NCBI RefSeq assembly: GCF_030209445.1
Contig: NZ_JARVSD010000008.1
Coordinates: 372,001 to 436,000 of the forward strand
Source of the DNA: Promicromonospora sp. MEB111
Lineage (GTDB): Bacteria > Actinomycetota > Actinomycetes > Actinomycetales > Cellulomonadaceae
Direction: 5' to 3'
Length of the DNA: 64,000 nucleotides
Below are positions 1,742-16,503 of the stretch, piece by piece (position 1 is the stretch's first letter; each line of letters begins with the position of its first letter). The notes below the pieces were generated by a model, which saw only the letters and a program-made list of their open reading frames with translations, made no database searches and had not been told where the DNA came from. A program made the position numbers and the translations under genes.

Positions 1742-1801
1742 CGCGTACGTCTCGGACGCCCGGCCCGGACGCCTGGCCTGGGCCCCCGACCCGCCCGGGC
1801 A

Positions 1802-1849
1802 AAGACGCTAGAGATTCCTTGCGCAAGTTCTCTTTAGCGTCTTACGCTC
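1802..1849 (+). promoter_or_regulatory. operator and leaderless promoter of the HTH regulator
   Basis: Inverted 9-mers AAGACGCTA (1802-1810) and TAGCGTCTT (1835-1843) flank an inner perfect palindrome CTTGCGCAAG (1818-1827). A TACGCT -10-like hexamer follows at 1844-1849, 5 nt before the ATG at 1855, with no ribosome site, which suggests a leaderless message. The nested dyad over the promoter fits autoregulation by the ArsR/HTH product. The assignment is inferred from position. Confidence 0.5.
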
Positions 1850-1854
1850 GGCGC

Positions 1855-2484
1855 ATGCCCGAGCAGATGCAGCCAGAGACCCAGGGGTTCACCCGGCCGA
1901 CGCCGCCGGAGGATGCCGTCATCTCACAGGCCGACGCCATCAAGGCCATGACCCACCCGCTGCGCATCCGCCTGCTCGGCCTGTTCCGTCCCGGGGTGGA
2001 GCTCACCGCCACCCAGTGCGCCGAGCGCACGGGCGAGTCGGTGGCGAGCTGCTCGTTCCACCTGCGCCAGCTCGAGAAGTACGGGCACGTCGAGCGCGCC
2101 GAGGCACACGGCAAGGAGCGCCCGTGGCGGGCCGTGAGCAGGGGGTTCAGCGTGCGCCCCGACCTCGCCGACCCCGAGTCGTGGCCCGCCGCCCAGGCGT
2201 TCGGCAGCATGTTCGTGGCCGAGCAGTTCGCCGCCCTGCAGCGCTGGCTCGCCGACGCCGGACGGGACGACCCGGCCTGGGTGTTCGCCAGCACCCAGAC
2301 GGCCCAGGAGTTCTGGGCGACGCGCGACGAGCTGGACGATCTCTCCCGGCGGCTGGAGGAGATCACCGCGCCGTTCCGCGGCCGCGCGGTGGACCCCGGC
2401 AAGCGTCCGGAGTGCGCGCGGCGCGCGCACCTGTTCGGCGCGGTCTGGGCCGAGATCCCGGAGCCGGAGGGCGAGGACGCATGA
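1855..2484 (+). CDS. ArsR-like winged-helix transcriptional regulator
   Basis: Cytoplasmic DNA-binding regulator, 209 aa. The winged-helix lies at about residues 22-85: MTHPLRIRLLGLF, then the recognition-helix stretch ATQCAERTGESVASCSFHL and the wing. This pattern (tests for 'lower-level' family HTH_20/ArsR) is common for proteins that control a neighbouring exporter. The C-terminal half is Trp-rich and helical and may bind a ligand; no metal-binding cysteine cluster of classic ArsR is seen. The stop overlaps the start of the MFS gene by 4 bp (ATGA), so the two are translationally coupled. A palindromic operator overlaps its own promoter (1802-1843). The inducing compound is unknown. Confidence 0.85.
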   Translation: MPEQMQPETQGFTRPTPPEDAVISQADAIKAMTHPLRIRLLGLFRPGVELTATQCAERTGESVASCSFHLRQLEKYGHVERAEAHGKERPWRAVSRGFSVRPDLADPESWPAAQAFGSMFVAEQFAALQRWLADAGRDDPAWVFASTQTAQEFWATRDELDDLSRRLEEITAPFRGRAVDPGKRPECARRAHLFGAVWAEIPEPEGEDA

Positions 2485-3779
2485 CCACCACCGGACCGAC
2501 CGTGCCGGGTGACGGCGCCGCCCCGGGCGACCCGTCCGCCCTCGGGCAGCCTGTGCCGGCGGACCCCGCCCGGTACCTGCGGACCCCACTCTTCCGGACC
2601 CTCGTGGTGGGCTGGACGCTCGCGAACGTGGCGGACTCGCTGCTCACGCTGCTCATGGCGGTCTGGGTCGCGGACCTGACGGGCAGCGCCGCGCTCGGCG
2701 GTGCGACGTTCGCCCTGCTGGGCCTGCCCGCGCTCGCCTCGCCGTTCCTGGGGTACCTCGCGGACCGGGTGTCCCGGCGGCGCATGCTCGTGGTCGCCTA
2801 CGTGGTGGGCGCGCTCGGGCTGGTGCCGCTGTTCTGGGTGACCCGGGCGGACCAGGTCTGGATCGTCTTCGCGGCCACGCTGGTGTACTCGGCGGTCGCG
2901 TACGTGACGGGCGCCTGCCAGTCGGGTCTGCTCAAGGACCTCCTGCCGACCGAGGCCCTGGGCCACGCCAACGGGCGCCTGTCGATGATCGACCAGGTGT
3001 TCCGCGTGGCCCTGCCGCTGCTCGGCGCGGCGGTCTACGCCCTGGTGGGCGTGGTGCCGCTGGTCGTGGTGGCCATCGCGGGGTTCGTGGGCGCGGCGGT
3101 CGTGCTCGGCCTCGTGCGGATCACCGAGTCGCGGTTCGAGGGTGAGCCGGGCGAGTCGTACCTGGCGGCGACGACGGCCGGGTTCCGCCACCTGTTCGGC
3201 ACCCAGCCGCTCGGCGGGATGACGTGGAACGCCGTGATCGTGTTCGCGTCGGTCGGCCTCGTGAACGCCGTCGCGTTCGCCGTGCTGGAGGGGCTGGGGC
3301 TGCCCGCGGCCTGGCTCGGCCCGCTCACGGTGCTGCAGGGGGTGACCGGGTTCGTCGCCGGGGCGGTCACGCCGCGCCTCATGCTGCGGTTCGGCCGGCC
3401 GCGCGTCTACGCGGTGGGGATCCTCGCCGCGGGCGTGGCCCTGGTGCCGCTCATGTTCGGCTGGGTGATCCCCGCGATCGCGGGTCAGGCCCTGCTCGGC
3501 TTCGGGGTGACGGCCGCGATCATCGCGTGGGTCACCGAGCGCCAGGTCCGGACGCCGGAACGGCTCCAGGGCCGGGTCGCCGCCGCCGGGCACCTGGTCA
3601 ACAACCTGCCGGGCACCGTGGTGACGGCGATCGGCGCGGGGCTGCTCGCGGTCGTGGACTACCGGCTGCTGGTGCTCGCCAACGTCGTGGTGGTGGTCGG
3701 GGCCGGGCTGGTCGCGCTGCGCCTGCGCCACGCGGCCGACCCGGACGTGTCAGACGCTCAGGTCACCCGGGTGACCTGA
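2481..3779 (+). CDS. major facilitator superfamily transporter
   Basis: Inner-membrane secondary transporter, 432 aa, with about ten to twelve hydrophobic helices after a 30-residue Pro/Gly-rich cytoplasmic N-terminus. The MFS motif A is seen as GYLADRVSRRRML between helices 2 and 3. The gene starts inside the stop of the regulator (ATGA), so it is probably the regulator's main target and an exporter of the drug or metabolite sensed. A role in import cannot be excluded. Its last codons form one arm of a 50-bp palindrome (3744-3793) that separates it from the convergent PknG operon. Confidence 0.88.
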   Translation: MTTTGPTVPGDGAAPGDPSALGQPVPADPARYLRTPLFRTLVVGWTLANVADSLLTLLMAVWVADLTGSAALGGATFALLGLPALASPFLGYLADRVSRRRMLVVAYVVGALGLVPLFWVTRADQVWIVFAATLVYSAVAYVTGACQSGLLKDLLPTEALGHANGRLSMIDQVFRVALPLLGAAVYALVGVVPLVVVAIAGFVGAAVVLGLVRITESRFEGEPGESYLAATTAGFRHLFGTQPLGGMTWNAVIVFASVGLVNAVAFAVLEGLGLPAAWLGPLTVLQGVTGFVAGAVTPRLMLRFGRPRVYAVGILAAGVALVPLMFGWVIPAIAGQALLGFGVTAAIIAWVTERQVRTPERLQGRVAAAGHLVNNLPGTVVTAIGAGLLAVVDYRLLVLANVVVVVGAGLVALRLRHAADPDVSDAQVTRVT

Positions 3780-3793
3780 GCGTCTGACACGTC
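3744..3793. terminator. bidirectional terminator, 24-bp perfect stem
   Basis: A perfect inverted repeat with 24-bp arms and only 2 nt between them. It includes the last 12 codons of the MFS gene and ends 4 bp before the stop of the convergent FHA gene, so it can stop transcription from both sides. Confidence 0.75.
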
Positions 3794-3796
3794 AGG

Positions 3797-4693
3797 TCAG
3801 GCCTCGCCCGGGAGGGCCTTGCGGATCACCAGACGTGTCCACGCGCCGAGGAAGACCCGGTCGTTCTCCTCGATCTCGCGGCGCACGCCCTGGTTCAGCG
3901 GGCCGTCCGGGAGCGGGTCACCCGCCGCCGCCACGAAGGTCCCGTTCGACGAGCCGAGATCCTCGACCCACCAGCGCTGACCGTCCGTCGTGAGCTGGCA
4001 GTGCCGCCGGGACACCCCGGGGTCGCTGCCGCAGTCGATGTCGGGCCGGATGCCGCGCGACCTCGACGGCCGCCCCACGAGCAGGCTGCGCTGCCGCAGC
4101 GTGACGAGGCCGGGCAGGCCCGCGGACGGCATCGGGTCCTCCGGGCGCTCGTGCGCGTACCAGTCGGGGTCCACCCAGATCTCGGCCACCCAGGCGTCCT
4201 CGCCCGGGACGGGCGGCGCGGCCAGGCCGCCGCCGTCCGGCGACGGCGCGGGCGCGGGCGACGGCGCAGGGGCGGGCGCGGGCGCGGGGACTCCCGCCGA
4301 CACCGGTGCCGAACCCGCCGACGCCGCACCGGCCTCCGCCACGGAACCGCTCGCGGGCTGTGTGGCGTCCAGGTCGCCGAGGTCCAGGCCGGACGTCGGC
4401 GGGGGCGGCGGAGCCGGCGTCCCGGTGGTGAAGTCGTACCCGCAGTTCTCGCAGAACAGGGAGTCGGCGGGGGACAGGTCGCCGCAGTTCGGGCAGGTCA
4501 CGGGGCCGGCGGAGGCCTCCGTGGGCGCGGCCGGCGCACCACCGGACGCTCCGGTGCCGGTCGCGACGCTCCCGGGTGCGGCGCCGGACCCGCCGGACGA
4601 CGCGGCGCCGGCGCCCGCGGGGATCGGCGTGCCGCAGACGTCGCAGTAGTCCGTGGACTGGCTGGTGTGTCCCTCCGGACAGACGACGGTCAT
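3797..4693 (-). CDS. zinc-ribbon plus FHA-domain protein (phosphothreonine reader)
   Basis: Cytoplasmic adaptor, 298 aa. N-terminal knuckle with Cys5, His9, Cys17 and Cys20 (TDYCDVCGTP), then a second ribbon with Cys67/70/81/84 (CPNCGDL, FCENCGYDF), a long Ala/Pro linker (about 90-160), and a C-terminal FHA domain (about 195-295) with the hallmark GRP, SRRH and SSNGT segments that bind phosphothreonine. It is the last gene of the PknG operon and overlaps the VWA gene by 4 bp. It is a natural reader of PknG phosphorylation, like GarA/OdhI, but lacks the N-terminal ETTSV-type phosphorylation motif known from GarA, so it is probably not the orthologue. A GDLDAT segment (106-111) also occurs in this locus's PknG. 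Confidence 0.88.
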   Translation of the reverse strand: MTVVCPEGHTSQSTDYCDVCGTPIPAGAGAASSGGSGAAPGSVATGTGASGGAPAAPTEASAGPVTCPNCGDLSPADSLFCENCGYDFTTGTPAPPPPPTSGLDLGDLDATQPASGSVAEAGAASAGSAPVSAGVPAPAPAPAPSPAPAPSPDGGGLAAPPVPGEDAWVAEIWVDPDWYAHERPEDPMPSAGLPGLVTLRQRSLLVGRPSRSRGIRPDIDCGSDPGVSRRHCQLTTDGQRWWVEDLGSSNGTFVAAAGDPLPDGPLNQGVRREIEENDRVFLGAWTRLVIRKALPGEA

Positions 4694-6009
4694 GCGCGCC
4701 GGACCCGGGTCGTCTTGGTGGAGGCGGTGTCGAGTGCCATCTCATCCAGCTTGGCGGTGTTCCGCTTGAGCCGCACGGTGCCCTCCTCCTCGTTCTCCAC
4801 GTCCACGATCTTGCGCAGGCGCGACGTGGCCTCGTCGTTGCCGGTCTCGGCGGCGAGCTGCACGGCGCGGCCGAGCTTCACGGTCGCCGTCGCCTCGTCG
4901 CCGGCGGCCTTGGCCGCGAGGCCCTCCTGGATGGCCGAGGCGAGCTCGGCCTGGCCCGTGTAGTGCGCCACCTCGGGGCTGATCCGGGCGGTGAGCGTGG
5001 AGTCGTCCGACCACTTGGCCTTGACCAGGCCCGACGCCTGCACCTCGCCGCCCACCGCGACCTGCACCCGCGCCGCGAGCTGCTCCGAGCCCACGGGCTT
5101 CGCCGCCACGCGCACGGCCACGTGGTAGTCGCGGGTCTCGTCGGCCCACGCGCCGGTGGGGTACCCGCTGGTCAGCGGGTTCACCTCGGTACGACGGCCC
5201 GTCAGGTCGTCGACCTCGGGGGCCACCTGCTTGACGAACAGGACCTGCGACCCCTGCGGCGCCCACACCCGCAGGTCCACCGAGGCGACGCCGCGCGCCA
5301 TCGACTTGCGCACCAGGGCCGCGAAGTCCTCGGCGATGTCCTCCGGGCGCGCGATGAGGTCGACGGTGCCCAGCAGCGCCGTCGAGATCTTGCGCAGCTC
5401 CTCGACCACCCAGCGGTCGCCCACGCCGCGGGCGTCGCACTGGAAGTGGCCCGTGACGTCGGCGATCATCCGGTCCAGGTGCATCGACGGCTCGGACTCG
5501 TTCTTGCCGTCGGTCAGCAGGATCAGGTGCTTCTGCGCCGCCGGGACCGTGGCGAAGAGGTCGTCCGCGAGCCGCAGCCACGTCGAGATGGCCGTGCCGC
5601 CGCTGGCCGACATCGTGGAGATGGCGCGCTTGGCCTCGTTGCGGGCGCCCGGCTCCATGGCCACCATCGGCACCCGGGCGTTGGGGTAGGGGAAGATCCG
5701 GGTGGCCACGTGCGAGCCGCCGATGATCGCGAACAGCGTGCCGTCCGGGATCTGGTCCACGGCCACGGCGGCGGCGTGCTTGGCGGCCTCCATGTTGCGG
5801 CCCTGCATGGATCCGGACGTGTCGACGGCGACGATCTCGGCGACCTGTCCCGCGCCGACGGCGTCGGTGGTGGCGCTCGCGCCCGCGGTGACGCCGACGG
5901 CCCCGGCCGCCCCGGCGCCGGCGCAGGTCACGGACACGATGGCGTGCACGTCGGTGCCGCCGTCGGACAGGAACTCGTTCTGGAAGACCTCGGCGGAGAA
6001 CTCGGCCAC
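4690..6009 (-). CDS. von Willebrand factor A domain protein
   Basis: 439 aa with a VWA domain from about residue 55 to 240. The MIDAS metal site is seen as DTSGS at 63-67, with LLTDGKNE farther on; VWA domains bind partner proteins through a bound divalent ion. The rest is a beta-rich middle region and a C-terminal helical part that may act as a scaffold. It starts with GTG at 6009 behind a GAGGAG ribosome site and overlaps the FHA gene by 4 bp. VWA proteins often act with AAA ATPases as chaperone-like pairs. An AAA gene is in the same operon (13012-14409), so a VWA-AAA pair is a reasonable inference. No signal peptide is seen, so it is cytoplasmic. Confidence 0.85.
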   Translation of the reverse strand: MAEFSAEVFQNEFLSDGGTDVHAIVSVTCAGAGAAGAVGVTAGASATTDAVGAGQVAEIVAVDTSGSMQGRNMEAAKHAAAVAVDQIPDGTLFAIIGGSHVATRIFPYPNARVPMVAMEPGARNEAKRAISTMSASGGTAISTWLRLADDLFATVPAAQKHLILLTDGKNESEPSMHLDRMIADVTGHFQCDARGVGDRWVVEELRKISTALLGTVDLIARPEDIAEDFAALVRKSMARGVASVDLRVWAPQGSQVLFVKQVAPEVDDLTGRRTEVNPLTSGYPTGAWADETRDYHVAVRVAAKPVGSEQLAARVQVAVGGEVQASGLVKAKWSDDSTLTARISPEVAHYTGQAELASAIQEGLAAKAAGDEATATVKLGRAVQLAAETGNDEATSRLRKIVDVENEEEGTVRLKRNTAKLDEMALDTASTKTTRVRRA

Positions 6010-6034
6010 GGTGGCTCCTCTCGGTTACGGCAGG

Positions 6035-7150
6035 CTAGCGCTGCTCGGTGACAGTCGGGGCGATCCGGGCGAGCGCGGCGGTGATGTTGTCGCGCCCTCC
6101 CTGGGCGTTGGCCCAGCGGACGAGCGCCGCCGCGGCGGCGTGGGGCTCGCCGCAGCCGGCGAACCGGCGCACGAGCTCGCCCATCTCGTGCGCGTCGGAG
6201 CAGTAGTTCCACAGGCCGTCCGAGCAGACCAGCAGCCAGCCGGGCCCGGACGGGACGGTCGCGGCGCAGCGCGCGTCGGTGTCGGCGGCGTCGGGGCCGA
6301 GCCAGCGGGTGATGGCGTGCGCCTGCGGCGACGTCTCGGCCTGGGCGCGCGGCACGCCCGCCGCGATCATCTCCTGCGCCCACGAGTCGTCGACGCTGAG
6401 CTGCTCGGCCGGACCGGCGTCCGGCAGCCAGTACACGCGGGAGTCGCCCAGCCAGCCGGCGACGATCAGGTCGCGGTCCACGACGGCGGCCACGAAGGTG
6501 CACGACGGCGGGTCGTCCGCCACGTTCGTCCCCTTGGTCGCGGCGAGCTGCTCCGCCGCGCCCCGCACCGCCTGGCCCGCCGCGCGCGACGCGGCGACCA
6601 TGGCGTCGGTCCAGCCGGCGATGCGCCGGCTGGTGGCACCCGCGACCGAGCTCGACCCCTCGGGCCCGTAGGCCACGAGCACGTCCCGGGCCGCGCGGCT
6701 CGCGGCGAGCGAGGCGACGTCGGAGTCCGGGGCGCTGGAGACGCCGTCGCACACCACGAGCGCCGCGAAGGTGCTGCTCGCGGCCAGCGCCATCGCGTCC
6801 TCGTTGCGGGCGTGCCGGATGCCCCGGTCGCAGACGCCGGCCACCCAGGCCGCCGGGCGCTCCTCGAAGTGGTCGCGCTCGGACTGGCCGGGGGTGCCGC
6901 AGTCGGCGCAGTAGCCGTCGTCGGCGATGAGGCCGCCGCAGGCCGCGCACCTGCGCCGCCCGGCCTCGCCCGTCGGCGGGTCGAGGTCCAGCACGGTGGG
7001 TGCCACGTCCAGGGTCACCTCGGACGGCAGGGACGGGTCGTCCGCGACGGGGCCCAGCGCCGTGCCGCAGTTCTCGCAGAACCTGGCGCGGGGTGCCGCG
7101 CTCTCTCCACAGCTCGGGCAACGGACGAGGACGCTGTCGTCGGCGGTCAT
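6035..7150 (-). CDS. PP2C-family Ser/Thr protein phosphatase with two zinc knuckles
   Basis: 371 aa. N-terminal ribbons carry Cys11/14/25/28 and Cys68/71/81/84; the second ends DDGYCADCGTP, matching the knuckles of PknG and the FHA protein in this operon. The PP2C domain (about 95-365) shows RHARNEDAM, VCDGVSS and WLGDSRVYW, which supply the metal-binding acidic residues. It would dephosphorylate PknG or its targets in the cytoplasm. It starts with ATG at 7150 behind GGAG, 111 bp after pknG ends, with a hairpin between (7222-7241). This is the widest gap in the operon, so the phosphatase, VWA and FHA genes may be expressed at a different level from the upstream part. Confidence 0.9.
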   Translation of the reverse strand: MTADDSVLVRCPSCGESAAPRARFCENCGTALGPVADDPSLPSEVTLDVAPTVLDLDPPTGEAGRRRCAACGGLIADDGYCADCGTPGQSERDHFEERPAAWVAGVCDRGIRHARNEDAMALAASSTFAALVVCDGVSSAPDSDVASLAASRAARDVLVAYGPEGSSSVAGATSRRIAGWTDAMVAASRAAGQAVRGAAEQLAATKGTNVADDPPSCTFVAAVVDRDLIVAGWLGDSRVYWLPDAGPAEQLSVDDSWAQEMIAAGVPRAQAETSPQAHAITRWLGPDAADTDARCAATVPSGPGWLLVCSDGLWNYCSDAHEMGELVRRFAGCGEPHAAAAALVRWANAQGGRDNITAALARIAPTVTEQR

Positions 7151-7221
7151 GTCGGGGTCGATCTCCTTGCCTTCGTCAGGGCTCCCGCCCCGCGACTGTG
7201 GTTCAGCGGGTCTCCGGCTGC

Positions 7222-7241
7222 GGGCGCCGTCGGTGGCGCCC
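7222..7241 (-). terminator. small intercistronic hairpin after pknG
   Basis: Seven-bp perfect stem GGGCGCC / GGCGCCC with a 6-nt loop, 21 bp past the pknG stop. It may be a partial terminator or an RNA processing site that lowers expression of the downstream phosphatase-VWA-FHA genes. Confidence 0.4.
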
Positions 7242-7261
7242 GGTCCGGCCCGGCGGGGCGC

Positions 7262-9553
7262 TCATCGCCACGTCCACTGCCGTACGGAGTTTGCCCGGTC
7301 CACGAGCGCGACGCGCTCCGAGCGCTCGTCGGTGAGGTGGGCGAGGTTGCGCAGGGCGAGCTCCAGGCGGTCCCGCAGCTCGTGCTCCTCGGCGCTCGCA
7401 CCGGCCACCCGCACGCTCGGGACGGGCCCGTCGCGCAGCACGATGTCGAGCGCCTCGTCGAGGGCCTCGACGGTGACCTGGGCCTTGGGCCGGTCGGGGA
7501 TGTGGGCGGCGTCGAGCCCGGCGACGGCGTCGGCCAGGTCGAGCAGCGTGCGGTGCGCGGAGACGAGGAGCCGGGCCCGCTGCAGGCGGGCGTCCGGGAA
7601 GGACCCGCGCGTGGGGCCCACCAGCTCCAGTGCGTCGAGGGCGCCGTCGAGCTCGCCGCCGCCGGACCGCACGCGGGCGAGGCCGAACGCGGCGGCGCCG
7701 GTGTAGTTGGCGTCGGCCCGGGCGATGGTGCCGTAGAGCTGCTCGGCGACGCCGGGCTCGCCCGAGAGCTCGCAGCTCGTGGCGAGCGCGAGCTTGGGCG
7801 CCGGCTCGCCGGGCACCTGCCCGTAGACGGCGTTGAACGACGCGCGGGCCGCGGCGGCGTTGCCCGACGCGAGGTGCCCGAGGCCCTCCATCCAGGCGGC
7901 GCGCCACTCCCACGCGTCGTCCTCCAGGATCTGCGCCACGGTGGTGCGCAGCAGCGCGGCGTCGTCCGCCTCGATCGCGGCGCGGGCGACGGCGAGGCGC
8001 ACCTCGACGGTGTGCTCGTCCGGGTCGGCCAGGGCCTTGATGCGCTCCACGGGGTCGGCGACGTTGACGCCGGCCAGCCAGGAGGCCATCGGGTCGGCGG
8101 AGTCGACCTTCAGGAGCGGCAGCTCGTTCCAGTCGAGGGCGCCGTCGGCGCCGTCGAGCGGCGGCACGCCGAACAGGAGCGACTCGGCGGACGTCGTGGC
8201 GGTGTACCCGGGACCCTTGTCGGTGGCGACCACCTCGCGCAGCACGCCCAGGAGCTGGACCCGGGCCTCGTCCACGGTCCCGAACCGGTCGGCGGGATCG
8301 GGGGCGCACGCCTTGGCGAGCCAGCGGTAGAACGAGTCGTACTTCTGGAAGACCGGGGTGTCGGCCACGGGCGGGAACGACGCCTGGTAGACGGTGGTGT
8401 TGCCGCGGAAGTCCAGCACGAGGGACGCCAGGGTGCGGCCGAGCGTGAAGATGTCGGACGCCACGGACGGCCCGACCTCCGGCACCTCGGGCGCCTGGTA
8501 GCCGACGGTGCCGTAGATGGCCGACGTCAGGTCGTCGGTGCGGCGCACGCCACCCATGTCGATCAGCTTGACGCCGTCGCCTTGGGCGATGATGTTGTCC
8601 GGCTTGAAGTCGCAGTACAGCAGGTCGTGGTCGTGCAGGTAGCTGAACGCGGGCAGCACCTCGAGGATGTAGGCGATGGCCTGGTCCACGGGCAGCGGGC
8701 GGGGCTGCCCGCCGTCCTGCTCGCGGCGGTCCTTGAGCACGTCCTTGAGCGACCGGCCGCCCACGAACTCCATGACGGTGTAGCCGAGGCCCTCGTGGAG
8801 CACGAAGTTGAAGATCTCGACGATCAGCGGGTGCTCGACCTCGGCCAGGAACTGGCGCTCGGCGACCGCGGCCTCGTACGCCTCGGTGTCGCCCGCGTTG
8901 AGCAGGCCCTTGAGCACCACCCAGCGGCCGCTGACGTTGCGGTCGCGGGCCAGGTAGATCCAGCCGAGCCCGCCGTGGGCGAGGCAGCCCACCACCTCGT
9001 ACTGCCCGGCGACGAGGTCGCCGGCCTTGAGCGCGGGGGCGAAGTCGTACCGCGCGCCGCAGTGGCCGCAGAACCCGGCGATGCGGCCGGGCACGCCGTC
9101 CCTGGCGCGGCCGACCGGCTGCCCGCACGTGGGGCAGTACCGCTTGGACTCGGCGAGCTCGGGCGTCTCCATGACGGCCTGCAGCGGGTCGGCCACCGGC
9201 GTGTGCGGCACGGTGGTCAGGCCCGCCCCGAGCCGGTGCCCGCGCAGGCGGGTGGACCCGGTGCCGACCCGGCGGGTCTGCCGGGTGCCGCCCGTCACGC
9301 GCGCCGAGCCCAGGGCGGTGGACGCGAGGCGCGACGAGCTGGTGCGCCCGGTCGTCGGCTCGGCCATGGCGCTCGGCACGGAACCCGAGGAGCGGACGGT
9401 CGTCGCGTCGAGGTCGCCGTCGGCCCAGGACGCCGCGACGGCGGCGAGCCCGTCGCCGGCCGGGTTGCCGCCGGCGGGCGTACCGCACACGTTGCAGTAG
9501 CCGTCCTCGATGGTGCCGGTGCAGCCCGGCTCGGCGCAGGCCTGTTCAGTCAT
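7262..9553 (-). CDS. pknG: Ser/Thr protein kinase PknG (rubredoxin-kinase-TPR)
   Basis: Soluble kinase that in mycobacteria and corynebacteria links external amino-acid sensing to 2-oxoglutarate metabolism. 763 aa. Order: an N-terminal knuckle (Cys6/11/20/23, DGYCNVCGTP), a linker with GDLDATT (46-52), a rubredoxin-like domain (Cys140/143/162/165), a kinase domain (about 183-440) with ATP lysine 215 in VVLKG, catalytic loop YCDFKPDN and DMG in place of DFG, then helical TPR repeats to the end (NSVRQWTWR). The catalytic loop and IDMG variant match the unusual PknG pattern. Start ATG 9553 overlaps the upstream stop (ATGA). The extra N-terminal knuckle is not in the M. tuberculosis protein as I recall it. 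Confidence 0.95.
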   Translation of the reverse strand: MTEQACAEPGCTGTIEDGYCNVCGTPAGGNPAGDGLAAVAASWADGDLDATTVRSSGSVPSAMAEPTTGRTSSSRLASTALGSARVTGGTRQTRRVGTGSTRLRGHRLGAGLTTVPHTPVADPLQAVMETPELAESKRYCPTCGQPVGRARDGVPGRIAGFCGHCGARYDFAPALKAGDLVAGQYEVVGCLAHGGLGWIYLARDRNVSGRWVVLKGLLNAGDTEAYEAAVAERQFLAEVEHPLIVEIFNFVLHEGLGYTVMEFVGGRSLKDVLKDRREQDGGQPRPLPVDQAIAYILEVLPAFSYLHDHDLLYCDFKPDNIIAQGDGVKLIDMGGVRRTDDLTSAIYGTVGYQAPEVPEVGPSVASDIFTLGRTLASLVLDFRGNTTVYQASFPPVADTPVFQKYDSFYRWLAKACAPDPADRFGTVDEARVQLLGVLREVVATDKGPGYTATTSAESLLFGVPPLDGADGALDWNELPLLKVDSADPMASWLAGVNVADPVERIKALADPDEHTVEVRLAVARAAIEADDAALLRTTVAQILEDDAWEWRAAWMEGLGHLASGNAAAARASFNAVYGQVPGEPAPKLALATSCELSGEPGVAEQLYGTIARADANYTGAAAFGLARVRSGGGELDGALDALELVGPTRGSFPDARLQRARLLVSAHRTLLDLADAVAGLDAAHIPDRPKAQVTVEALDEALDIVLRDGPVPSVRVAGASAEEHELRDRLELALRNLAHLTDERSERVALVDRANSVRQWTWR

Positions 9554-10653
9554 CGGTGTCCCTCCGGGAGATCGCGCACGAGCGTCTCGAGCTGCTCGGT
9601 GAAGTGCCGGGCCAGGGCCAGGTCGCAGGGGGTCGCGTCGAGCGTCTCGCGCACCTCGTCCTCGCCCGCCTTCACGGTGTACGACGACGCCCGCCCGTTG
9701 CCCTGGGCCTTCGTCATCAGGTTCTTCACGCGGTAGCGCAGCTCGGCGCGCTCCCGCAGGGGTGCGGTGTAGGCGTCCTCGACCTGCTCCATGGCGCGCT
9801 CGACGGAGCCCAGCCGCTGGACGTAGGTCGTGAGCCGCGCCGGCTCGTCCGGGACCTCGCCGAGGCGGTGCACGTCCGGGATCGCGAGCCGTGGCGGGAC
9901 GGCGATCTCCCGGCGGCAGCGCTCGGCGAGCTGCGCGAGCCGGGGCGCCCGGTCGGCCAGGGCGGCACGCAGCTCGACGGCGCGCTGCCGGTCCTTGGCG
10001 AGCGACCGGCTCCGGGCGGCGTGCACGATGAGGTCGCGCTCGGTGCGCGCGACCTCGTCCTCCAGCGCGCCGAGGGGGCCCGTGACGTCGGCGCCGCGGG
10101 CGGCGTCGGCCTTGAGCCGGGCGTGCCGGTCGCGCAGGCGGGCGACGGCGGCGTCGTCCTCCGTCGCGGCCGTGGCCCGCGCGGCGTCCTCCGCCCGGAC
10201 GATCCCGGCGGCCAGCGCCCGGAACCGGGCGGTGACGTCGGCCGCGTGCGGGTCGAACGAGAGCCGGGAGGCGAGCTGGTCGGCCTGGGCGTCGCACAGG
10301 CGTGCGGCGTCGACCAGGGACAGGAGCGACGTGGCGGGGTCACCGCCGAGCCGGCCCCAGACGAGCTGCGACATGCGTTCGCGCGCCACGGCGTCCGCCC
10401 GGCCCGAGTCCCACACCTCGACCAGCTCGTCCGTGCGCGTGCGCACGGCCTGCCACAGGGTCAGGGCGAGCACCACGTCGGCGGTGACGGCGTCCGCGCC
10501 GGACTGCCGGGCCGCGGCGTCGAGCCGGTCCAGGTCGGCGCGGCGCACGTCGAGCCACGCCTGCAGGTCGGACAGGTACGCCAGCAGCGCGGCCGGCTCG
10601 GCCGCCACCCCCAGGGCGCCCGGCGGCGCGGGCGCGCGCTGCGTCCGGCTCAC
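9550..10653 (-). CDS. coiled-coil protein of unknown function in the PknG operon
   Basis: 367 aa, almost entirely alpha-helical with long charged stretches (for example LEDEVARTERDLIVHAARS) that look like coiled coil at about 140-300. No signal peptide, membrane helix or enzyme motif is seen. It starts at GTG 10653, overlapping the stop of the GlnH-like gene (GTGA), and ends overlapping the pknG start (ATGA). It therefore sits exactly between the sensor lipoprotein and the kinase, a place that is empty in the mycobacterial glnX-glnH-pknG order. It could bridge the membrane sensor to PknG. I do not recognise the family. Confidence 0.8.
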   Translation of the reverse strand: MSRTQRAPAPPGALGVAAEPAALLAYLSDLQAWLDVRRADLDRLDAAARQSGADAVTADVVLALTLWQAVRTRTDELVEVWDSGRADAVARERMSQLVWGRLGGDPATSLLSLVDAARLCDAQADQLASRLSFDPHAADVTARFRALAAGIVRAEDAARATAATEDDAAVARLRDRHARLKADAARGADVTGPLGALEDEVARTERDLIVHAARSRSLAKDRQRAVELRAALADRAPRLAQLAERCRREIAVPPRLAIPDVHRLGEVPDEPARLTTYVQRLGSVERAMEQVEDAYTAPLRERAELRYRVKNLMTKAQGNGRASSYTVKAGEDEVRETLDATPCDLALARHFTEQLETLVRDLPEGHR

Positions 10654-11687
10654 GGCGTCCGTCCGTACACGGGCTCGGGCGCGGACGGCGCCGCGCCGAG
10701 CGCGTCGCCCAGCCAGCGGTCGTAGGACTCCTCCCACTGCCCGCCCGCGACCATGTCCTCCAGCACGCCGTTGACGAACCGCACCATGTCCGCGTTGCCG
10801 GCGGGGATGCCCACGCCGTACGGCTCGTCGCTCACGGCGTCGCCGACGACCTTGGCGTAGGGGTCCTGGGCGGCGAAGCCCGCCAGGACGGTGTCGTCAC
10901 CCGTGATGGCGTCCACCGCACCCTGCTGGAACAGCACCAGGCACGTGGTGTGCGTGGCGGCGGGCACCGCCTCGACGCCCTCCCACTGCTCCAGCCGCTC
11001 CAGGGTGGTGGTGCCCTCGGGCGCGCACACGCGCTGCCCGTCCAGGTCGTCGATGCTCTCCACCTTCGACGTCGACGGCACCAGCAGCTTCTGCCCCGCG
11101 TGGTAGTACTCCGCGGAGAACGCGATGTTCTCCCACCGGTCGCAGTTGATCGTGAACGCGCGGGTCACGATGTCGACGTCGCCGTCCTCCAGGACGGCCT
11201 CCCGGTCGCCCGACGTGATGACCCGGTACTGGATCTTCTCCGGGTCGCCCAGGATCGCGTCGGCGATCTGCCGGGCCACGTCGATGTCGAAGCCCTCGAT
11301 GTCGCCCGTGAACGGGTTGCGCGAGCCCATGAGCAGCGTGTCCGCCGAGACGCCCACCCGGAGGGTCCCGCGCTCGCGGATCTCGGCCATCGTGGAGCCG
11401 GACGTCACCTCCGGGCTGCCGCCCGGGTCGATCGACGCGACGGGCGGCAGCCCGTCGCTGCAGTCCTCCGCGGCCGTGGCCGTGCCCGACGTCGTCGCGC
11501 CCGCCGCCGCCTTCGGCGCAGAGTCCTGAGCGGAGTCCCGCACCGACTCCTGCGCGGCCGAGCCCGCCCCGGCCGCGCCCGTCAGGAGCTGCGTCGTGGG
11601 CTGGGGCGCGCACGCCGCCGTCGTGCCGACGAGGGCCAGCGCCACCAGGGCGGTGACGATCGGTCTGCGGGCTGCGCGCGTGCTCAT
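10650..11687 (-). CDS. glnH: GlnH-like glutamate/glutamine-binding lipoprotein
   Basis: Solute-binding lipoprotein of SBP family 3, 345 aa. A lipoprotein signal peptide ends at Cys26 (VGTTAAC). After a low-complexity linker to about residue 80 comes the binding fold: GTLRVGVSADTLLMG, GFDIDVARQIADAILG and CAPEGTTTLERLEQW. In mycobacteria GlnH binds Asp/Glu/Gln and signals through GlnX to PknG rather than feeding a transporter. No permease or ATPase is next to this gene, which fits a sensor. It starts at ATG 11687, overlapping the glnX-like stop (ATGA). Ligand is inferred from context. Confidence 0.87.
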   Translation of the reverse strand: MSTRAARRPIVTALVALALVGTTAACAPQPTTQLLTGAAGAGSAAQESVRDSAQDSAPKAAAGATTSGTATAAEDCSDGLPPVASIDPGGSPEVTSGSTMAEIRERGTLRVGVSADTLLMGSRNPFTGDIEGFDIDVARQIADAILGDPEKIQYRVITSGDREAVLEDGDVDIVTRAFTINCDRWENIAFSAEYYHAGQKLLVPSTSKVESIDDLDGQRVCAPEGTTTLERLEQWEGVEAVPAATHTTCLVLFQQGAVDAITGDDTVLAGFAAQDPYAKVVGDAVSDEPYGVGIPAGNADMVRFVNGVLEDMVAGGQWEESYDRWLGDALGAAPSAPEPVYGRTP

Positions 11688-13015
11688 CGGTACTCCTTCA
11701 GGCGGACGTTCATCCCGGCGGCCGCGGCGACGGCGCCGGCGACACCGAGCACGAGGGCGACCCAGGCCGCGATCTGGGCGGTGGTCGCCGCGGAGCCGAG
11801 CCGGTCCACCGCGGCGGTGCTCGTGGTCTCGACGTCGGCGTGGGCCTGGTCGGAGAACGCCGTGAAGGCCGCGCCCGCCGAGTCGTCGGCCGTGGACGTC
11901 GCGGCGTCGACCGCCTCGTCCCACTGGCCGCCGTCGTCCAGCGCGCGGATCTCGGCGTGCTTCTCGTCCCAGGCGTTCAGCAGGGCCAGCGGGTCGGAGC
12001 CGGTGTCCGAGGCGTCCTGCGCCTCGGTCAGCAGGTCGCGGGCCTGGGCGACCGAGGTCTGGTAGGACTCCTCGAACTCGGCGCCGGAACCGCGCTTGAT
12101 CAGCGTGAACGACTCCATCGACTTGGCGTCCGTGGCGAGCGACAGGGCCTGCGACGTGGCGACCGTGGCCGCGTACGGGCCGCTCGCCACCGACCGGGCC
12201 ACGCCGTTGCCGCCCAGCACCGCCACCGTCGCCACGATGCCGCCCACCAGCAGGGCGACGCTCGCGGCCGCCAGCCCCAGGTTCAGCCGGCGGTGCGTGC
12301 GGCGCGCCAGCCAGAGCTGGACGGCGGCCAGCGCCACGAGGCCGAGCAGCACGAACAGCAGCAGCGCCTGGCTCAGGGAGACGGAGGTCAGGTCGTCGTC
12401 CACCCGCTCGGACGTCGAGACCGCCACGTCGTCGAGCGTGGGCAGCACCTCGTCGCGCAACGCGGCGGAGGCCTGGTCCAGGTAGGCCGCGCCGACCGGG
12501 AAACCCTGCCGGTTGTTCGCCCGGGCCGACTCGACCAGGCCCGCGTACCGCTGCACCGAGTCCGACACCGTGGCCAGGTCCGCGGTCTCGTCCGCCCCCT
12601 GCGCCGTCGACGCAAGCGCCGGCAGCGCCTCCGCGGCCTCGGACACGCTCGCCTCGTAGCGCTCGCGGGCCTCCGTGGGCTCCAGCCCGCCGACGAGGAA
12701 CGCGTTGGTCGCCGTCGCGTCCGCCGACACCAGGTCGTTGCGCAGCTCCTGCGTGCCGACGAGCTGCGCGGCGTCCCGCTGCGCGTCCCGCAGGGCCGCC
12801 GACTGGCTGCTGCCCGCCAGGAACCCGGTGACCGCCAGCAGCAGGCACGCCACCACGGCCACGGCGGTGGCCAGCGCCAGCCGGCCCGGCGTGGTCGCGA
12901 GCTCCGCGGTGATCCGGTCCCGGACGGAGGTGCGCGCGGGGCCGTCGTCCGGGGCCCCGGACGCCGGGCCCGGCTCGCTCCGGGGCGGGCCCGTGGTGGT
13001 CAGGGGTGCCGTCAC
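11684..13015 (-). CDS. glnX: GlnX-like four-helix membrane sensor protein
   Basis: 443 aa integral membrane protein. Hydrophobic segments are seen at about 46-66, 210-235, 240-265 and 405-430. Between helices 1-2 and 3-4 are two extracytoplasmic helical domains of about 140 residues, similar in layout to four-helix-bundle ligand sensors. The order glnX-glnH-(gene)-pknG is conserved with mycobacteria, where GlnX passes the GlnH signal across the membrane. The cytoplasmic N-terminus is Pro/Gly-rich and the C-terminus is a short basic tail (NVRLKEYR). Start GTG 13015 overlaps the AAA stop. Identification rests on topology and gene order more than on motifs. Confidence 0.8.
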   Translation of the reverse strand: MTAPLTTTGPPRSEPGPASGAPDDGPARTSVRDRITAELATTPGRLALATAVAVVACLLLAVTGFLAGSSQSAALRDAQRDAAQLVGTQELRNDLVSADATATNAFLVGGLEPTEARERYEASVSEAAEALPALASTAQGADETADLATVSDSVQRYAGLVESARANNRQGFPVGAAYLDQASAALRDEVLPTLDDVAVSTSERVDDDLTSVSLSQALLLFVLLGLVALAAVQLWLARRTHRRLNLGLAAASVALLVGGIVATVAVLGGNGVARSVASGPYAATVATSQALSLATDAKSMESFTLIKRGSGAEFEESYQTSVAQARDLLTEAQDASDTGSDPLALLNAWDEKHAEIRALDDGGQWDEAVDAATSTADDSAGAAFTAFSDQAHADVETTSTAAVDRLGSAATTAQIAAWVALVLGVAGAVAAAAGMNVRLKEYR

Positions 13016-14409
13016 AGGGTGGCCTCGCTGTCTGTCCCGATGTCCACGACGTCCTCCAGGTCTTCCGGGACCAGCGTGCGCAGCTGGTCCACCGTCGGTC
13101 GTTCAACGTCCCGCAGGCGCCAGGCGTGCCGGGCGATCGCGGAGTCGAGCACGTTGCGTGCCCAGCGGCCGTTGCCGAAGCCCTCGCTGCGCACCTGGTC
13201 CGCCACGAGGCGGTCGAAGCGGTCGAGGGTGGCGGGCTCCGGCTCGAAGTCGGCGGCCCCGGCCATGGCCGCGAAGATCTGCCGCAGCTCGGCGGCGGAG
13301 TAGTCCTCGAACGTGATGGTCCGCGAGAACCGGCTCTCCAGGCCCGGGTTGGTGCCGACGAACCGGGCCATCGGGCCCGGGTAGCCCGCCACGATCACCA
13401 CGAGGTCGTCGCGGTGGTCCTCCATGTCCTTGACCAGGGTGTCCACCGCCTCGCGGCCGTACTGGTCCTCGGCCAGCGCGTACGCCTCGTCGATGAACAG
13501 CACGCCGCCCAGGGCGCGCTGCACCACAGCCGTCGTCTTCTCCGCGGTCTGGCCCAGGTAGCCCGCCACCAGCTCGGACCGGTCGACCTCCACGAGGTGG
13601 CCCTTGTCCAGCAGCCCGAGTGCGCGGTAGATCCCGGCCACGAGGCGGCCCACCGTGGTCTTGCCCGTGCCGGGGTTGCCGACGAACACCAGGTGGCGGG
13701 TGAGCGTGGGGGAGGTGAGGCCGGCCTCGGCGCGGAGGCGCTCGATGCGCAGCAGCTCGGTCTGCCGGTGGATCTCGTCCTTGACCCGGCCCAGGCCGAT
13801 GAGCTGGTCCAGCTCGTCGAGCAGCTCGGCCAGCGGGCGGGGCTCGTCCGCGGGTTCCGGCTCGGGTTCGGTCCCGGCGGCCTGGGTGGCCGGCTCGGGC
13901 TCCGTGGCGGACGGCGTGGGGGCCGGTGCGCCGAGCCTGAGCCCGGGGTCGGCGCCGGCCCGGGGCGCCGTCTCGCGGCCCGCCGCAGCGCTGCGGTGGA
14001 CTGCTTTCGTGCCCTCTGCGGCGGCTATGGCGCTGATGCTCGGGTCGCCCAGGGTGGCGGCCGCGTCGACGACGGCGGCCAGGGCGTCGGCGTAGCCCGG
14101 GGCGTGCTGCGGGGCGGTCGTGATGAGGTGCTCGAGCAGGTCGGTCGGGGCGGAGCGCCAGCGGCGCGCGCTCACGGCGGCGTCGAAGAACGGCTGGAGC
14201 GTGGACGACGTCGGGCGGCCGGTGCTTCCTTCCGGGCCGACGTCGGCGGCGGTGGCCTTGAGCCAGTCCGTCGGGGCGCCGGGGGACGACTCCGCCACCG
14301 CGGCGGCCAGCCGCTCGCCCTCGGCGCGCGCTTCCGGGCCGCCGAGGCCGGTTGCGGTGCCGGCTGCGGCCAGGGCGTCGAGGGCGGTGGCCAGCGCCGT
14401 CGTGGTCAC
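13012..14409 (-). CDS. CbbX-type AAA+ ATPase
   Basis: 465 aa. The N-terminal ~190 residues are helical and variable and end in an acidic Pro/Glu linker; the AAA+ module follows at about 205-460. Walker A is GNPGTGKTT and Walker B is GVLFIDEAY. The RFSRTITF segment carries the arginine-finger region and GRWARNVLD the sensor-2 region. This is the CbbX/EccA/stage V K subfamily, which remodels protein complexes in the cytoplasm. It is coupled by GTGA overlaps at both ends. In this operon it could remodel the TelA, VWA or PknG complex. The substrate is unknown. Confidence 0.88.
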   Translation of the reverse strand: MTTTALATALDALAAAGTATGLGGPEARAEGERLAAAVAESSPGAPTDWLKATAADVGPEGSTGRPTSSTLQPFFDAAVSARRWRSAPTDLLEHLITTAPQHAPGYADALAAVVDAAATLGDPSISAIAAAEGTKAVHRSAAAGRETAPRAGADPGLRLGAPAPTPSATEPEPATQAAGTEPEPEPADEPRPLAELLDELDQLIGLGRVKDEIHRQTELLRIERLRAEAGLTSPTLTRHLVFVGNPGTGKTTVGRLVAGIYRALGLLDKGHLVEVDRSELVAGYLGQTAEKTTAVVQRALGGVLFIDEAYALAEDQYGREAVDTLVKDMEDHRDDLVVIVAGYPGPMARFVGTNPGLESRFSRTITFEDYSAAELRQIFAAMAGAADFEPEPATLDRFDRLVADQVRSEGFGNGRWARNVLDSAIARHAWRLRDVERPTVDQLRTLVPEDLEDVVDIGTDSEATL

Positions 14410-15008
14410 GGGGCCTCCAGGGGGCCGGGGCCCGCCGTCGGGCCCGGGCCTGCCGTGCCCGGACCTGGCAGTGGCTGGCCCGGCTGGGGCTGGCCGGACG
14501 GCGACTGGCCGGCGCTCGGGAGGGTGAGGCTGCCCGAGGTGCCGAACTTCTCCTCCAGGAACCGGCCGTGCGCCACGAGGGCCACCGCGTCGGCGCGGGA
14601 GACGGCGTCGGAGATCTTGTCGAGCGTGGCGCCCAGGAGGTCCAGCTGGTCGCACAGGATTAGGAGCGACGTCTTGCCGCGGTCCACGACGCGCCGGTCG
14701 GCGAAGTCGCGCGGCAGCCGCAGGTAGGCGTCGACGGCCTCCGGCAGGTAGCTCGTCGCCGTCGCCACCACGGTGTGTGCCTGCTGGGAGCCCGCGCCGA
14801 GCCGGTCCAGCCGCGGCGCCATCTCGTGCACGGTCTCGGCGACGCGCTGCACCCGGGCCGTGACGGCAGCGGGGGCCTTCCCGGACGCGCGCGCCAGCAC
14901 GGCGTCGACGGACGTGACGATCTGCTCGGTCGTGGGCGGCGCCGGGATCGCGAGGGGCGGCTCCGCCTCGGTGCGTCCGCCGCCGAAGACCCGCTGCCAC
15001 CAACCCAT
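14406..15008 (-). CDS. hypothetical helical protein between TelA and AAA genes
   Basis: 200 aa from ATG 15008, which has GGGGG five bases upstream; a GTG at 15035 overlapping the TelA stop is the alternative and would add nine residues. The product begins MGWWQRVFGGG, has a helical core at about 30-150 (SLLILCDQLDLLGATLDKIS) and a Pro/Gly-rich tail. No domain is recognised. Its place directly after telA and before the AAA ATPase in a tightly overlapping operon suggests it works with them. TelA-linked partners in other bacteria (for example XpaC-like proteins) are also small helical proteins, but no similarity was established here. Confidence 0.75.
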   Translation of the reverse strand: MGWWQRVFGGGRTEAEPPLAIPAPPTTEQIVTSVDAVLARASGKAPAAVTARVQRVAETVHEMAPRLDRLGAGSQQAHTVVATATSYLPEAVDAYLRLPRDFADRRVVDRGKTSLLILCDQLDLLGATLDKISDAVSRADAVALVAHGRFLEEKFGTSGSLTLPSAGQSPSGQPQPGQPLPGPGTAGPGPTAGPGPLEAP

Positions 15009-15031
15009 GCGTTCCCCCGTGCCCGCTGCCG

Positions 15032-16249
15032 TCACCGGTTGCCGAGGTCGAGGGAGCCGCTCGCCACGCCGTCGGTGTTGGTGCGCCGGGCCCGCTCGAC
15101 GTACTCGGAGGCCTTGGTCGTCTCGGTCTGCAGCACGCCGATGGTCTGCGACATCGAGTCCAGCGCGCGGGTCTTGAACTCGCTGATGGAGTCCATCGTC
15201 GCGTAGATGTTGGCGAACGCCGACTGGAGCTGCTCGATGCCCACGGTCGAGCTCGCGGCCTGCTCCTGGATGGTCGCGGACTGGTCGGCGAGCATCTTGG
15301 ACGTGGACGCGATCATGTTCGACGTCGTGGTGTTCAGGGCGCCGATCTGGTCCAGCACGAGCTTCTGGTTAGCGAGGGCCTGCGCCACGATGACGGCGGT
15401 GCGCAGCGCCGAGACCGTGGTCGTGGTGGCGCGGTCGACGCCCTTGGTGAGCTCGACGTTGTTCTTGATGATGATGTCGATCGCGAGGTAGCCCTGGATC
15501 GAGACCGCGAGCTGGGTGAGCAGGTCCTGGTGCTTCTGGCGCACGTAGAACAGCACGTCCTCGGACAGCGCCTTGGCCCGCTCGGGCTCGGCGATCTGCA
15601 GCTCGGCGATCTTCGCGGAGAGCTGGGCGTCGAGCCGCTCGGCCACGTAGATGTACTGGTTGAGCCGCGTCATCGTGTCCCAGAGGTTCTGCTTCTCCAG
15701 GTTGAGCGCGGCGTTGTCCTTGCGCAACTCGTCCTGCCCGTTGTAGAGGGCCTGGATGATGGCGTTGAGCTGGCCCTGGGCGGACTCGTAGCGGCGGAAG
15801 TAGTCCTGGATCTTGTCGCCGAACGGGATGACGCCGAGGATCTTGCGGCCCACGCTCGCCTCGGACGGGTCCAGGTCCTCCACCGTGCGGCGCAGCTCCA
15901 GGAGGGTCTGGCCCACCTTCGAGCCGTCGGCGAGGCCGCCCTCCTTCAGGGCGCGGACCGGCGTGGCCAGCAGGCGGTTGCTGGAGTCGGCGGCCTGCCG
16001 GATGTCCTGGTCGCCCATGGTGCGCACGTCGTCGGCGCGCCGGGCGAACTCGGGGGACCGGGTGTCGGTGCCGAGCAGGCCGTCGAGGTAGGTCGTGACC
16101 TTCTGGTCGAGCGCGGGCGCCACGGCGGGGTCGACCTTGGGCGCCATCTTGGGCGCCTGCGTCGCGGGCACGGCCTGCACCGGGTCGGGCGCCGTGAGCA
16201 CGAGCGGCTCTGCTGGCGCGGGGGGTTGAAGCGGCATCGGCTCGGTCAT
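15032..16249 (-). CDS. telA: TelA-family (toxic anion resistance) protein
   Basis: 405 aa cytoplasmic helical protein, first gene of the PknG operon. After a Pro/Ala-rich 60-residue N-terminus comes the long coiled TelA region: FGDKIQDYFRRYESAQGQL, NLWDTMTRLNQYIYVAERLD, RQKHQDLLTQLAVSIQGYLA and the QTTTVSALRTAV-type stretch. TelA proteins are linked to tellurite and stress tolerance and are often next to TerD, VWA and PP2C genes, but their biochemical role is unsettled. The ATG at 16249 is chosen over upstream possibilities because GAGGAG lies 6 nt before it and a good -10 (TATACT) at 16290-16285. Confidence 0.9.
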   Translation of the reverse strand: MTEPMPLQPPAPAEPLVLTAPDPVQAVPATQAPKMAPKVDPAVAPALDQKVTTYLDGLLGTDTRSPEFARRADDVRTMGDQDIRQAADSSNRLLATPVRALKEGGLADGSKVGQTLLELRRTVEDLDPSEASVGRKILGVIPFGDKIQDYFRRYESAQGQLNAIIQALYNGQDELRKDNAALNLEKQNLWDTMTRLNQYIYVAERLDAQLSAKIAELQIAEPERAKALSEDVLFYVRQKHQDLLTQLAVSIQGYLAIDIIIKNNVELTKGVDRATTTTVSALRTAVIVAQALANQKLVLDQIGALNTTTSNMIASTSKMLADQSATIQEQAASSTVGIEQLQSAFANIYATMDSISEFKTRALDSMSQTIGVLQTETTKASEYVERARRTNTDGVASGSLDLGNR

Positions 16250-16284
16250 CGGTGCTCCTCGAGATAGGGCGTCCGAACGCGGCG

Positions 16285-16290
16285 AGTATA
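16285..16290 (-). promoter_or_regulatory. -10 element of the TelA-PknG operon promoter
   Basis: TATACT read on the minus strand, 35 nt upstream of the telA start and standing out in a very GC-rich region. It lies in an imperfect dyad (CGCGGC...GCCGCG). The -35 is weak (TCGTCG at 16-nt spacing), which suggests activator dependence or an alternative sigma factor. Confidence 0.5.
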
Positions 16291-16467
16291 TGCCGCGGGC
16301 TACCGTCGACGAGGGGCGGAAGCGCTGCTCGGCGGGGTGAGAACGAGGGGGCGGCGGACAGAGTTCCCGGGGCGGCGGGTGACTGCTCGGTGTGGTGCGC
16401 CTCACCCGGCGTCCTCTCGCGGAATAGGCCCGCCGGGCCCCGAGGTTTGGGAGCATGAACGGAGTCG

Positions 16468-16496
16468 TTCGGACACCCTTCCAGACAGGATGTACA
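16468..16496 (+). promoter_or_regulatory. promoter of the ABC importer operon
   Basis: TTCGGA (16468-16473), 17-nt spacer, TGTACA (16491-16496), then only 7 nt to the ATG at 16504. There is no ribosome site, so the transcript is probably leaderless. Confidence 0.45.
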
Positions 16497-16503
16497 CGAA
16501 GCC

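Follow-up and report, generated by a model that had tools for sequence, protein, structure and literature searches.

In Corynebacterium and Mycobacterium, the kinase PknG operates in a GlnH-GlnX-PknG-OdhI/GarA pathway (available portions of PMC9769921, PMC6069109 and PMC8546545), and a glnX-glnH-pknG arrangement conserved in Actinomycetales has been reported from STRING (available text of PMC6069109). We analyzed a stretch of 64,000 nucleotides from Promicromonospora sp. MEB111 (contig NZ_JARVSD010000008.1, positions 372,001 to 436,000; hereafter the window), belonging to a genome of 6.2 Mb in 35 contigs, in which these three genes keep the same order inside a run of ten minus-strand genes at 3797-16249: TelA, gene 2, an AAA ATPase, GlnX, GlnH, a coiled-coil protein, PknG, a PP2C phosphatase, a VWA protein and a zinc-ribbon-FHA protein. 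The locus shares with the known pathway the rubredoxin-kinase-TPR architecture of PknG and the backbone contacts of GlnH, and differs from it in seven more genes, extra Cys pairs in PknG and an altered GlnH Asp pocket. The ten genes are a conserved operon-like unit, beyond what chance would give, and may be read as a single transcript; their distribution suggests that the known three-gene mycobacterial version is a trimmed-down form of a larger unit.

The additional genes recall three further systems. The TerY-P triad consists of a VWA protein, a PP2C and a kinase, and all three, with zinc ribbons, are found in the window's unit; the kinase of the window differs in being PknG, with its rubredoxin and TPR domains. 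A Ter stress system with TelA, TerD and TerC is said to have been described by Anantharaman in 2012. With the Ter system, summarized in the available text of PMC7824862, the window's unit shares a TelA adjoined by the gene 2 family and the presence of a VWA protein; it differs in lacking TerD and TerC and in having the PknG sensor kinase instead. The XpaC-YaaN(TelA) pair of Bacillus and Listeria (available text of PMC12791056) likewise couples TelA to a second protein, but the gene 2 family gave no XpaC match among its Pfam matches: none appeared in 26 members at E up to 1 or in seven relatives at E up to 10, in a test where HMMER filters discard most weak matches, and we do not assign gene 2 to XpaC. 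The main texts of PMC6069109 and PMC9769921 contain none of the terms VWA, Willebrand, PP2C, tellurite or toxic anion, and in the literature searched we found no description of the larger PknG gene set, part of which the Ter source paper might already note.

The distribution of the unit was surveyed in 149 genomes of the window's order (the order sample) and 296 genomes across the phylum (the phylum sample). PknG is patchy in both, exceeding the PF16919 cut-off in 19 of 149 genomes, the window's own included, and in 19 of 296. Seventeen order-sample loci were taken as 20-kb stretches around PknG, two genomes with short contigs (G329 and G381) being left out, and 15 of the 17 hold all ten families; the others are L060, with GlnX-GlnH-PknG only, and L052, with these three genes and the FHA gene. 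In G381, TelA, the AAA gene, GlnX, GlnH and the coiled-coil gene lie on a separate contig, which stops there (L196). Colinearity was counted over loci L051-L170, of which 53 contain all ten families, and gene order and single-strandedness are kept in every one of the 53; 80 of the loci are the best 80 of 582, so that the counts lean to the ten-gene type and are not frequencies. The 53 carry 49 distinct PknG proteins and come from Micrococcales, Propionibacteriales, Kineosporiales and other groups. The conservation of gene order in relatives, proposed as a check in an earlier reading made from the letters alone (the sequence-only reading), is thus borne out, and its Micrococcales scope has to be widened: the unit is present there, and a seven-gene version occurs in several other families.

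The genes flanking the unit do not share this conservation. Among the 53 loci, the major facilitator superfamily (MFS) gene of the window recurs in one, the upstream binding protein in three and the two permease frames in two each, all of them Promicromonospora, and the permeases may be under-counted where loci reach only about 2-5 kb past TelA, as many do. Inside the unit, by contrast, a 4-bp stop/start overlap is possible in 52 of 53 loci at AAA-GlnX and again at GlnX-GlnH, in 45 at coiled-coil-PknG, 43 at VWA-FHA, 41 at gene 2-AAA, 39 at GlnH-coiled-coil and 37 at PknG-PP2C. The window itself has such overlaps at seven of its nine junctions, while at the other two the genes are spaced, by 111 bp at PknG-PP2C and by 25 bp at PP2C-VWA; the coordinates of the sequence-only reading, and its description of nearly all genes as overlapping by 4 bp, were right. 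Eight of the ten products have a Pfam or NCBIfam identification (Table 1). The palindrome that lies between the convergent FHA and MFS genes is perhaps a two-way terminator. A scan for T-run terminators over 3600-16600 found none, the palindrome included, and a sigma-70 promoter scan of the same interval was also empty, two results that weigh little at this G+C; no regulatory RNA exceeded its gathering score in 1500-20000. Two sequences in the locus collection call for caution: the ten-gene locus of 'Streptomyces sp. SID13031' (L109), whose TelA groups with Kribbella and whose name may be wrong, and the locus of Promicromonospora kroppenstedtii (L101), where AAA, GlnX and VWA were not found, perhaps through an assembly fault.

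Table 1. Features of the ten-gene unit and its downstream boundary (window coordinates)
Feature	Coordinates	Strand	Evidence and remarks
Gene 1, TelA, 405 aa	15032..16249	-	PF05816, 312 bits; ATG at 16249; sole TelA match in genome
Gene 2, helical protein, TelA partner, 209 aa	14406..15035	-	AlphaFold; relatives adjoin TelA in Ter operons
Gene 3, AAA ATPase, SpoVK/EccA/CbbX kind, 465 aa	13012..14409	-	PF00004, PF17866 (AAA lid)
Gene 4, GlnX-family transducer, 443 aa	11684..13015	-	NF058618; hydropathy; alignment
Gene 5, GlnH-like solute-binding lipoprotein, 345 aa	10650..11687	-	PF00497 (SBP_bac_3); 6h1u match
Gene 6, coiled-coil helical protein, 367 aa	9550..10653	-	AlphaFold long helices
Gene 7, PknG, 763 aa	7262..9553	-	PF16919, PF00069, PF16918; 2pzi match
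Gene 8, double-zinc-ribbon PP2C phosphatase, 371 aa	6035..7150	-	PF13672, PF12773
Gene 9, VWA protein, 439 aa	4690..6009	-	PF13768 (VWA_3), PF18571 (VWA_3_C)
Gene 10, double-zinc-ribbon FHA protein, 298 aa	3797..4693	-	PF00498, PF12773
Palindrome between convergent FHA and MFS genes	3731..3806	.	two 38-nt arms, 87% complementary, no spacer

Gene content was counted over 115 distinct PknG loci. All ten families are present in 49 of them (47 well inside contigs), and 24 (22 well inside contigs) hold seven families, lacking TelA, gene 2 and the AAA gene; nine have GlnX-GlnH-PknG only, five from Propionibacteriaceae lack GlnH alone, and the remainder are partial, many ended by contig limits. The coiled-coil gene, and often the FHA gene too, was assigned in the seven-gene loci by profile only; in Streptomyces-type loci the coiled-coil protein was missed by single-sequence search, and the profile match there covers part of the protein. 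Seven-gene loci well inside contigs come from Streptomycetaceae, Micromonosporaceae, Thermomonosporaceae, a Nocardia, a metagenome-assembled genome of Acidimicrobiaceae and others; the version is also found in Actinoplanes, and in two Actinomadura loci GlnX-GlnH lie downstream. TelA-gene 2 and the AAA gene, in turn, are found in most of the Micrococcales, Propionibacteriales and Kineosporiaceae loci examined. The three-gene loci are L060 and eight of the ten loci of one family, f7, which we take for the mycobacterial line (a three-gene operon, sister to Nocardia); the other two f7 loci are second, lone PknG genes, and none of the ten holds any of the other families. This agrees with the claim of the sequence-only reading, and with the available literature, that mycobacteria have only glnX-glnH-pknG.

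A quick PknG tree of 69 rows (68 hand-picked loci and the window), made without bootstrap and weak at its base, was rooted on a divergent Streptomyces-type kinase with an adjoining VWA gene. The 27 TelA-bearing rows fall in one group of 32 (Shimodaira-Hasegawa-like approximate likelihood ratio test, SH-aLRT, 100), which also holds two seven-gene rows, two GlnX-GlnH-PknG rows and one lone PknG. Five branches meet at the base: two pure seven-gene branches, the f7-Nocardia branch, the large mixed branch and a single Nocardia row (L164) whose locus has GlnX and in which GlnH was not found. All ten f7 rows together form the sister group of a seven-gene locus, that of Nocardia xishanensis (SH-aLRT 99), and since the three-gene type stands beside a seven-gene locus, it looks reduced; gene loss in the presumed mycobacterial line is the simplest reading, on a tree whose base is weak. 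We advance, tentatively and at slightly less than balanced confidence, the view that mycobacterial glnX-glnH-pknG is the stripped remnant of an older seven-gene unit, equipped with a writer, an eraser and a reader, in which PknG would have had its first partners, GarA being a later or additional target, and that TelA-gene 2 and the AAA gene were captured in one actinobacterial branch, giving a TerD-free, amino-acid-gated envelope machine. Family f6 is Streptomyces-like and is taken for Streptomycetaceae, since Streptomyces canus falls together with its seven-gene rows; in three of its genomes (L087, L088, L089) a divergent PknG-like kinase, the second in each, adjoins a VWA gene.

The sensor and kinase genes are clearly those of the known pathway. 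PknG exceeds the cut-offs for its rubredoxin (PF16919, 91.3 bits), kinase (PF00069, 90.3 bits) and TPR (PF16918, 178.9 bits) domains, its closest solved relative is PknG 2pzi (E 7e-139), and K215, E232, D315, N320 and D332, together with the rubredoxin cysteines C140, C143, C162 and C165, are invariant in 19 of 19 sequences. Its closest named relatives are from Promicromonospora (three records are 84-90% identical, and the best segment of P. kroppenstedtii reaches 96%). Unlike the f7 rows, it has N-terminal zinc-ribbon-like Cys pairs and a Ser/Thr/Arg-rich arm. GlnX scores 296.7 bits against a cut-off of 250 in the NCBIfam GlnX family NF058618, and 128 against 780 for the equivalog NF041460, 'protein kinase G-activating protein GlnX'; it is thus a family member and not an equivalog. 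Its four hydrophobic stretches (48-66, 218-236, 248-266 and 415-433) are as in an f7 GlnX. In 31 aligned sequences, four of them from f7, R242 and N245, in the loop that connects stretches 2 and 3, are invariant, and R438, E441 and Y442, at the C-terminus, are nearly so; on the four-helix topology both groups are taken as cytoplasmic and are candidate contacts for PknG. Six genomes of family f83 (G338, G353, G381, G395, G409 and G423) have an extra full-length GlnX-family match of 174-216 bits away from their PknG loci.

GlnH begins with a hydrophobic stretch followed by a Cys, and its closest solved relative is the GlnH chain 6h1u (E 8e-62). The residues that contact the backbone and the side chain of the ligand are named in the available text of PMC6069109, which also predicts that, within Actinomycetales, a GlnH linked to PknG is specific for Asp/Glu. 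In M. tuberculosis numbering, the backbone-contact sites S164, R169 and D250 and the residue R147 are T, R, D and R in the window. Counting either S or T as conserved at 164, all but two of the 96 aligned rows, L142 and L060, keep them. The side-chain pocket is changed: T162 is replaced by A, W232 by H and K161 by R. Position 232 is H in 46 of 56 rows from TelA-bearing loci, Q in 13 rows, 11 of which have the seven-gene Streptomyces-type signature, and W in all eight f7 rows and in L145, L148 and L163. As judged from these residues, GlnH would be expected to bind an amino acid, possibly other than Asp or Glu.

This close kinship is also the ground for reading the locus as the known pathway itself, in which PknG would phosphorylate OdhI/GarA and so tune 2-oxoglutarate dehydrogenase, with the PP2C standing in for Ppp, the FHA protein as a competitor and the rest as scaffold. 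The genome has a GarA/OdhI relative elsewhere (156.5 bits, cut-off 200) whose N-terminus carries two adjacent Thr in the motif DTTANLG, where mycobacterial GarA has ETTSVF. The operon's own FHA protein is not a candidate, scoring 26.4 bits against the cut-off of 200 for the OdhI equivalog. A GarA relative, however, is present in 147 of the 149 order genomes, with or without PknG, which makes co-occurrence uninformative on any PknG-GarA link, and the paired Thr is found in 25 of 28 readable N-termini among the 30 best-matching loci, including eight of eight with PknG over the cut-off. Since GarA is nearly universal here and has its paired Thr regardless of PknG, PknG is not tied to GarA in this sample; the known pathway, moreover, leaves the TelA-gene 2 pair and the AAA gene unexplained. 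We consider it unlikely as a full account of the locus.

The TelA-gene 2 pair has a history outside the unit. TelA is found in 57 of the 149 order genomes: in all 19 with PknG over the cut-off and in 38 of the other 130 (Fisher p 1.3e-9, uncorrected for kinship), one of the 19 (G404) having its TelA as a Ter-type copy on another contig, away from PknG. Matches to the gene 2 profile occur in 41 of the 149 genomes, often adjoining TelA. Eight TelA-gene 2 loci of the order sample lie outside the operon (L184-L190 and L200; six in genomes without PknG over the cut-off, two in G348 and G404), and among the neighbours scanned TerD was found at seven, TerC/DUF475 at two and one or the other at all eight; G348 carries the ten-gene operon and a separate Ter pair. 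Two of the eight (L185 and L200) have three tandem gene 2 relatives adjoining TelA. The AAA profile has no match at the Ter-type loci. A TelA tree, with unsettled bootstrap and some long rows, included 19 rows from outside the operon. Twelve of them make up a branch (98/94) free of operon TelA, eight of the 12 being the scanned Ter-type loci; of the other seven, the orphan L191 and two operon fragments (L195 and L196) sit with operon TelA, one attaches weakly to the branch of 12, and three could not be placed. TerD was not found in the window's genome, and neither TerD nor TerC among the ten proteins, TerC not having been searched for genome-wide. From its Ter-type neighbours, the TelA tree and a genome without TerD, the pair is probably Ter-derived and now serves this operon.

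Three records extend these observations. The orphan L191 (TelA at 9034-10416) belongs to a genome without PknG over the cut-off; no gene 2 was found adjoining it, and it is perhaps a leftover. Two further TelA-gene 2 loci come from the plasmid collection, and no Ter domain was found among the few proteins scanned at either. One, L202 (5968-9498), lies on a plasmid of Sphaerotilus, where TelA, VWA and a relative of gene 2 follow one another, so that the pair also exists outside Actinomycetota; the other, L204 (NZ_LT559118.1), is an 11.85-Mb Nonomuraea record filed as a plasmid and presumably a chromosome.

That the pair is found elsewhere, and that the seven-gene unit exists without it, could also mean that two units merely adjoin, a Ter-type TelA-gene 2-AAA stress module and a PknG module sharing a transcript for dosage and not for mechanism. 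Such an arrangement would have to accommodate a junction fixed in all 53 ten-family loci, a TelA tree in which 12 of the 19 outside rows branch apart from operon TelA, an AAA profile blank at Ter-type loci and a genome without TerD, and we think it improbable.

No Pfam or NCBIfam family exceeds its cut-off for gene 2 or for gene 6; their AlphaFold models are helical, that of gene 2 with a mean predicted local distance difference test (pLDDT) score of 82 and that of gene 6, made of long helices, with a mean of 92. Comparison with the PDB gave nothing at or below E 0.001 for either protein, the lowest E values being 0.38 for gene 2 and 0.64 for gene 6. The AAA protein had been called CbbX-type; this label is good to family level only, as CbbX (220 bits) ranks below SpoVK (TIGR02881, 249 bits) and EccA (236 bits), each below its curated cut-off. 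The genome has four PP2C_2 matches in all, the PP2C of the operon among them. The VWA protein has a DxSxS motif in its translation, and its metal site motif looks intact; the FHA-motif GR and the S/R stretch of the FHA protein are kept across the ten-gene rows shown.

A kinase beside a Ter-like membrane effector might also be taken for anti-phage defence: some PADLOC kinase models match PknG (best 2.2e-33), and the available text of PMC7824862 credits Ter systems with excluding phages or xenobiotics. The PknG matches span the kinase domain common to Hanks kinases, and six of the other nine proteins are without a PADLOC match at E 0.01, TelA, AAA and PP2C matching weakly (best 3.5e-6); a steady gene order and co-inheritance across orders are, besides, unlike a fast-turning defence locus. 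We regard a defence role as very improbable indeed.

We hypothesize instead that the ten genes are one conserved unit for amino-acid-gated phospho-signaling at the membrane, with the operon's TelA set as effector, a proposal on which we stand about evenly balanced. The GlnH lipoprotein would bind an amino acid outside the cell and the four-helix transducer GlnX would relay the signal across the membrane, to be received through the TPR domain of PknG, the writer; this part of the scheme rests on homology with the known pathway. The zinc-ribbon PP2C would be the eraser and the zinc-ribbon FHA protein the reader, both binding the phosphorylated Ser/Thr/Arg-rich N-terminal arm of PknG or PknG substrates, while the coiled-coil and VWA proteins would act as a scaffold. 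The TelA-gene 2 pair and the AAA ATPase would then form the effector, a sub-membrane assembly built or dismantled according to phosphorylation state. TelA and TerF VWA are reported to form sub-membrane structures (available text of PMC7824862), and disruption of TelA in Listeria raised susceptibility to nisin and tellurite (Collins 2010, cited in the available text of PMC12791056); from these two reports we infer an envelope effector under amino-acid-gated phosphorylation.

The sequence-only reading had the sensor wired to its own phosphatase, phosphothreonine reader and a TelA/VWA/AAA machine; the conserved linkage upholds it in part, while all contacts between the products, the substrates, transcription as one unit and the role of effector are our inferences. 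Several observations weigh against the signaling proposal. The seven-gene type, lacking the TelA set, means that the core does not need that set. The unit can also dispense with the GlnH sensor, as in the GlnH-less Propionibacteriaceae loci (L128, L130, L134, L135 and L146), in which GlnX may take another input. Some loci that the PknG tree places in its ten-gene group are themselves reduced: most partners are gone from L052, L060 and L136, L137 has only the seven, and in L149 (Phycicoccus elongatus) the AAA gene accompanies the seven, TelA and gene 2 not being found. A 4-bp overlap is possible at TelA-gene 2 in only 4 of the 53 loci and at PP2C-VWA in only 2, and the 111-bp PknG-PP2C gap interrupts the window's own unit. 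Gene distances are correlated (r 0.61-0.92) in 47 loci, the 49 distinct ten-gene loci minus L107 and L143, which have long branches in the TelA tree, and shared ancestry alone would give that. Finally, visual inspection of the linkers in PP2C and FHA brought out no conserved Thr motif.

How the stress protein TelA works is not known, according to the available text of PMC12791056; if the proposed signaling unit is true, TelA would gain a defined upstream signal. PknG, for its part, is much studied, and if its wider and probably older setting is as outlined here, the PP2C, the FHA reader and the VWA and coiled-coil proteins become candidates for its missing partners.

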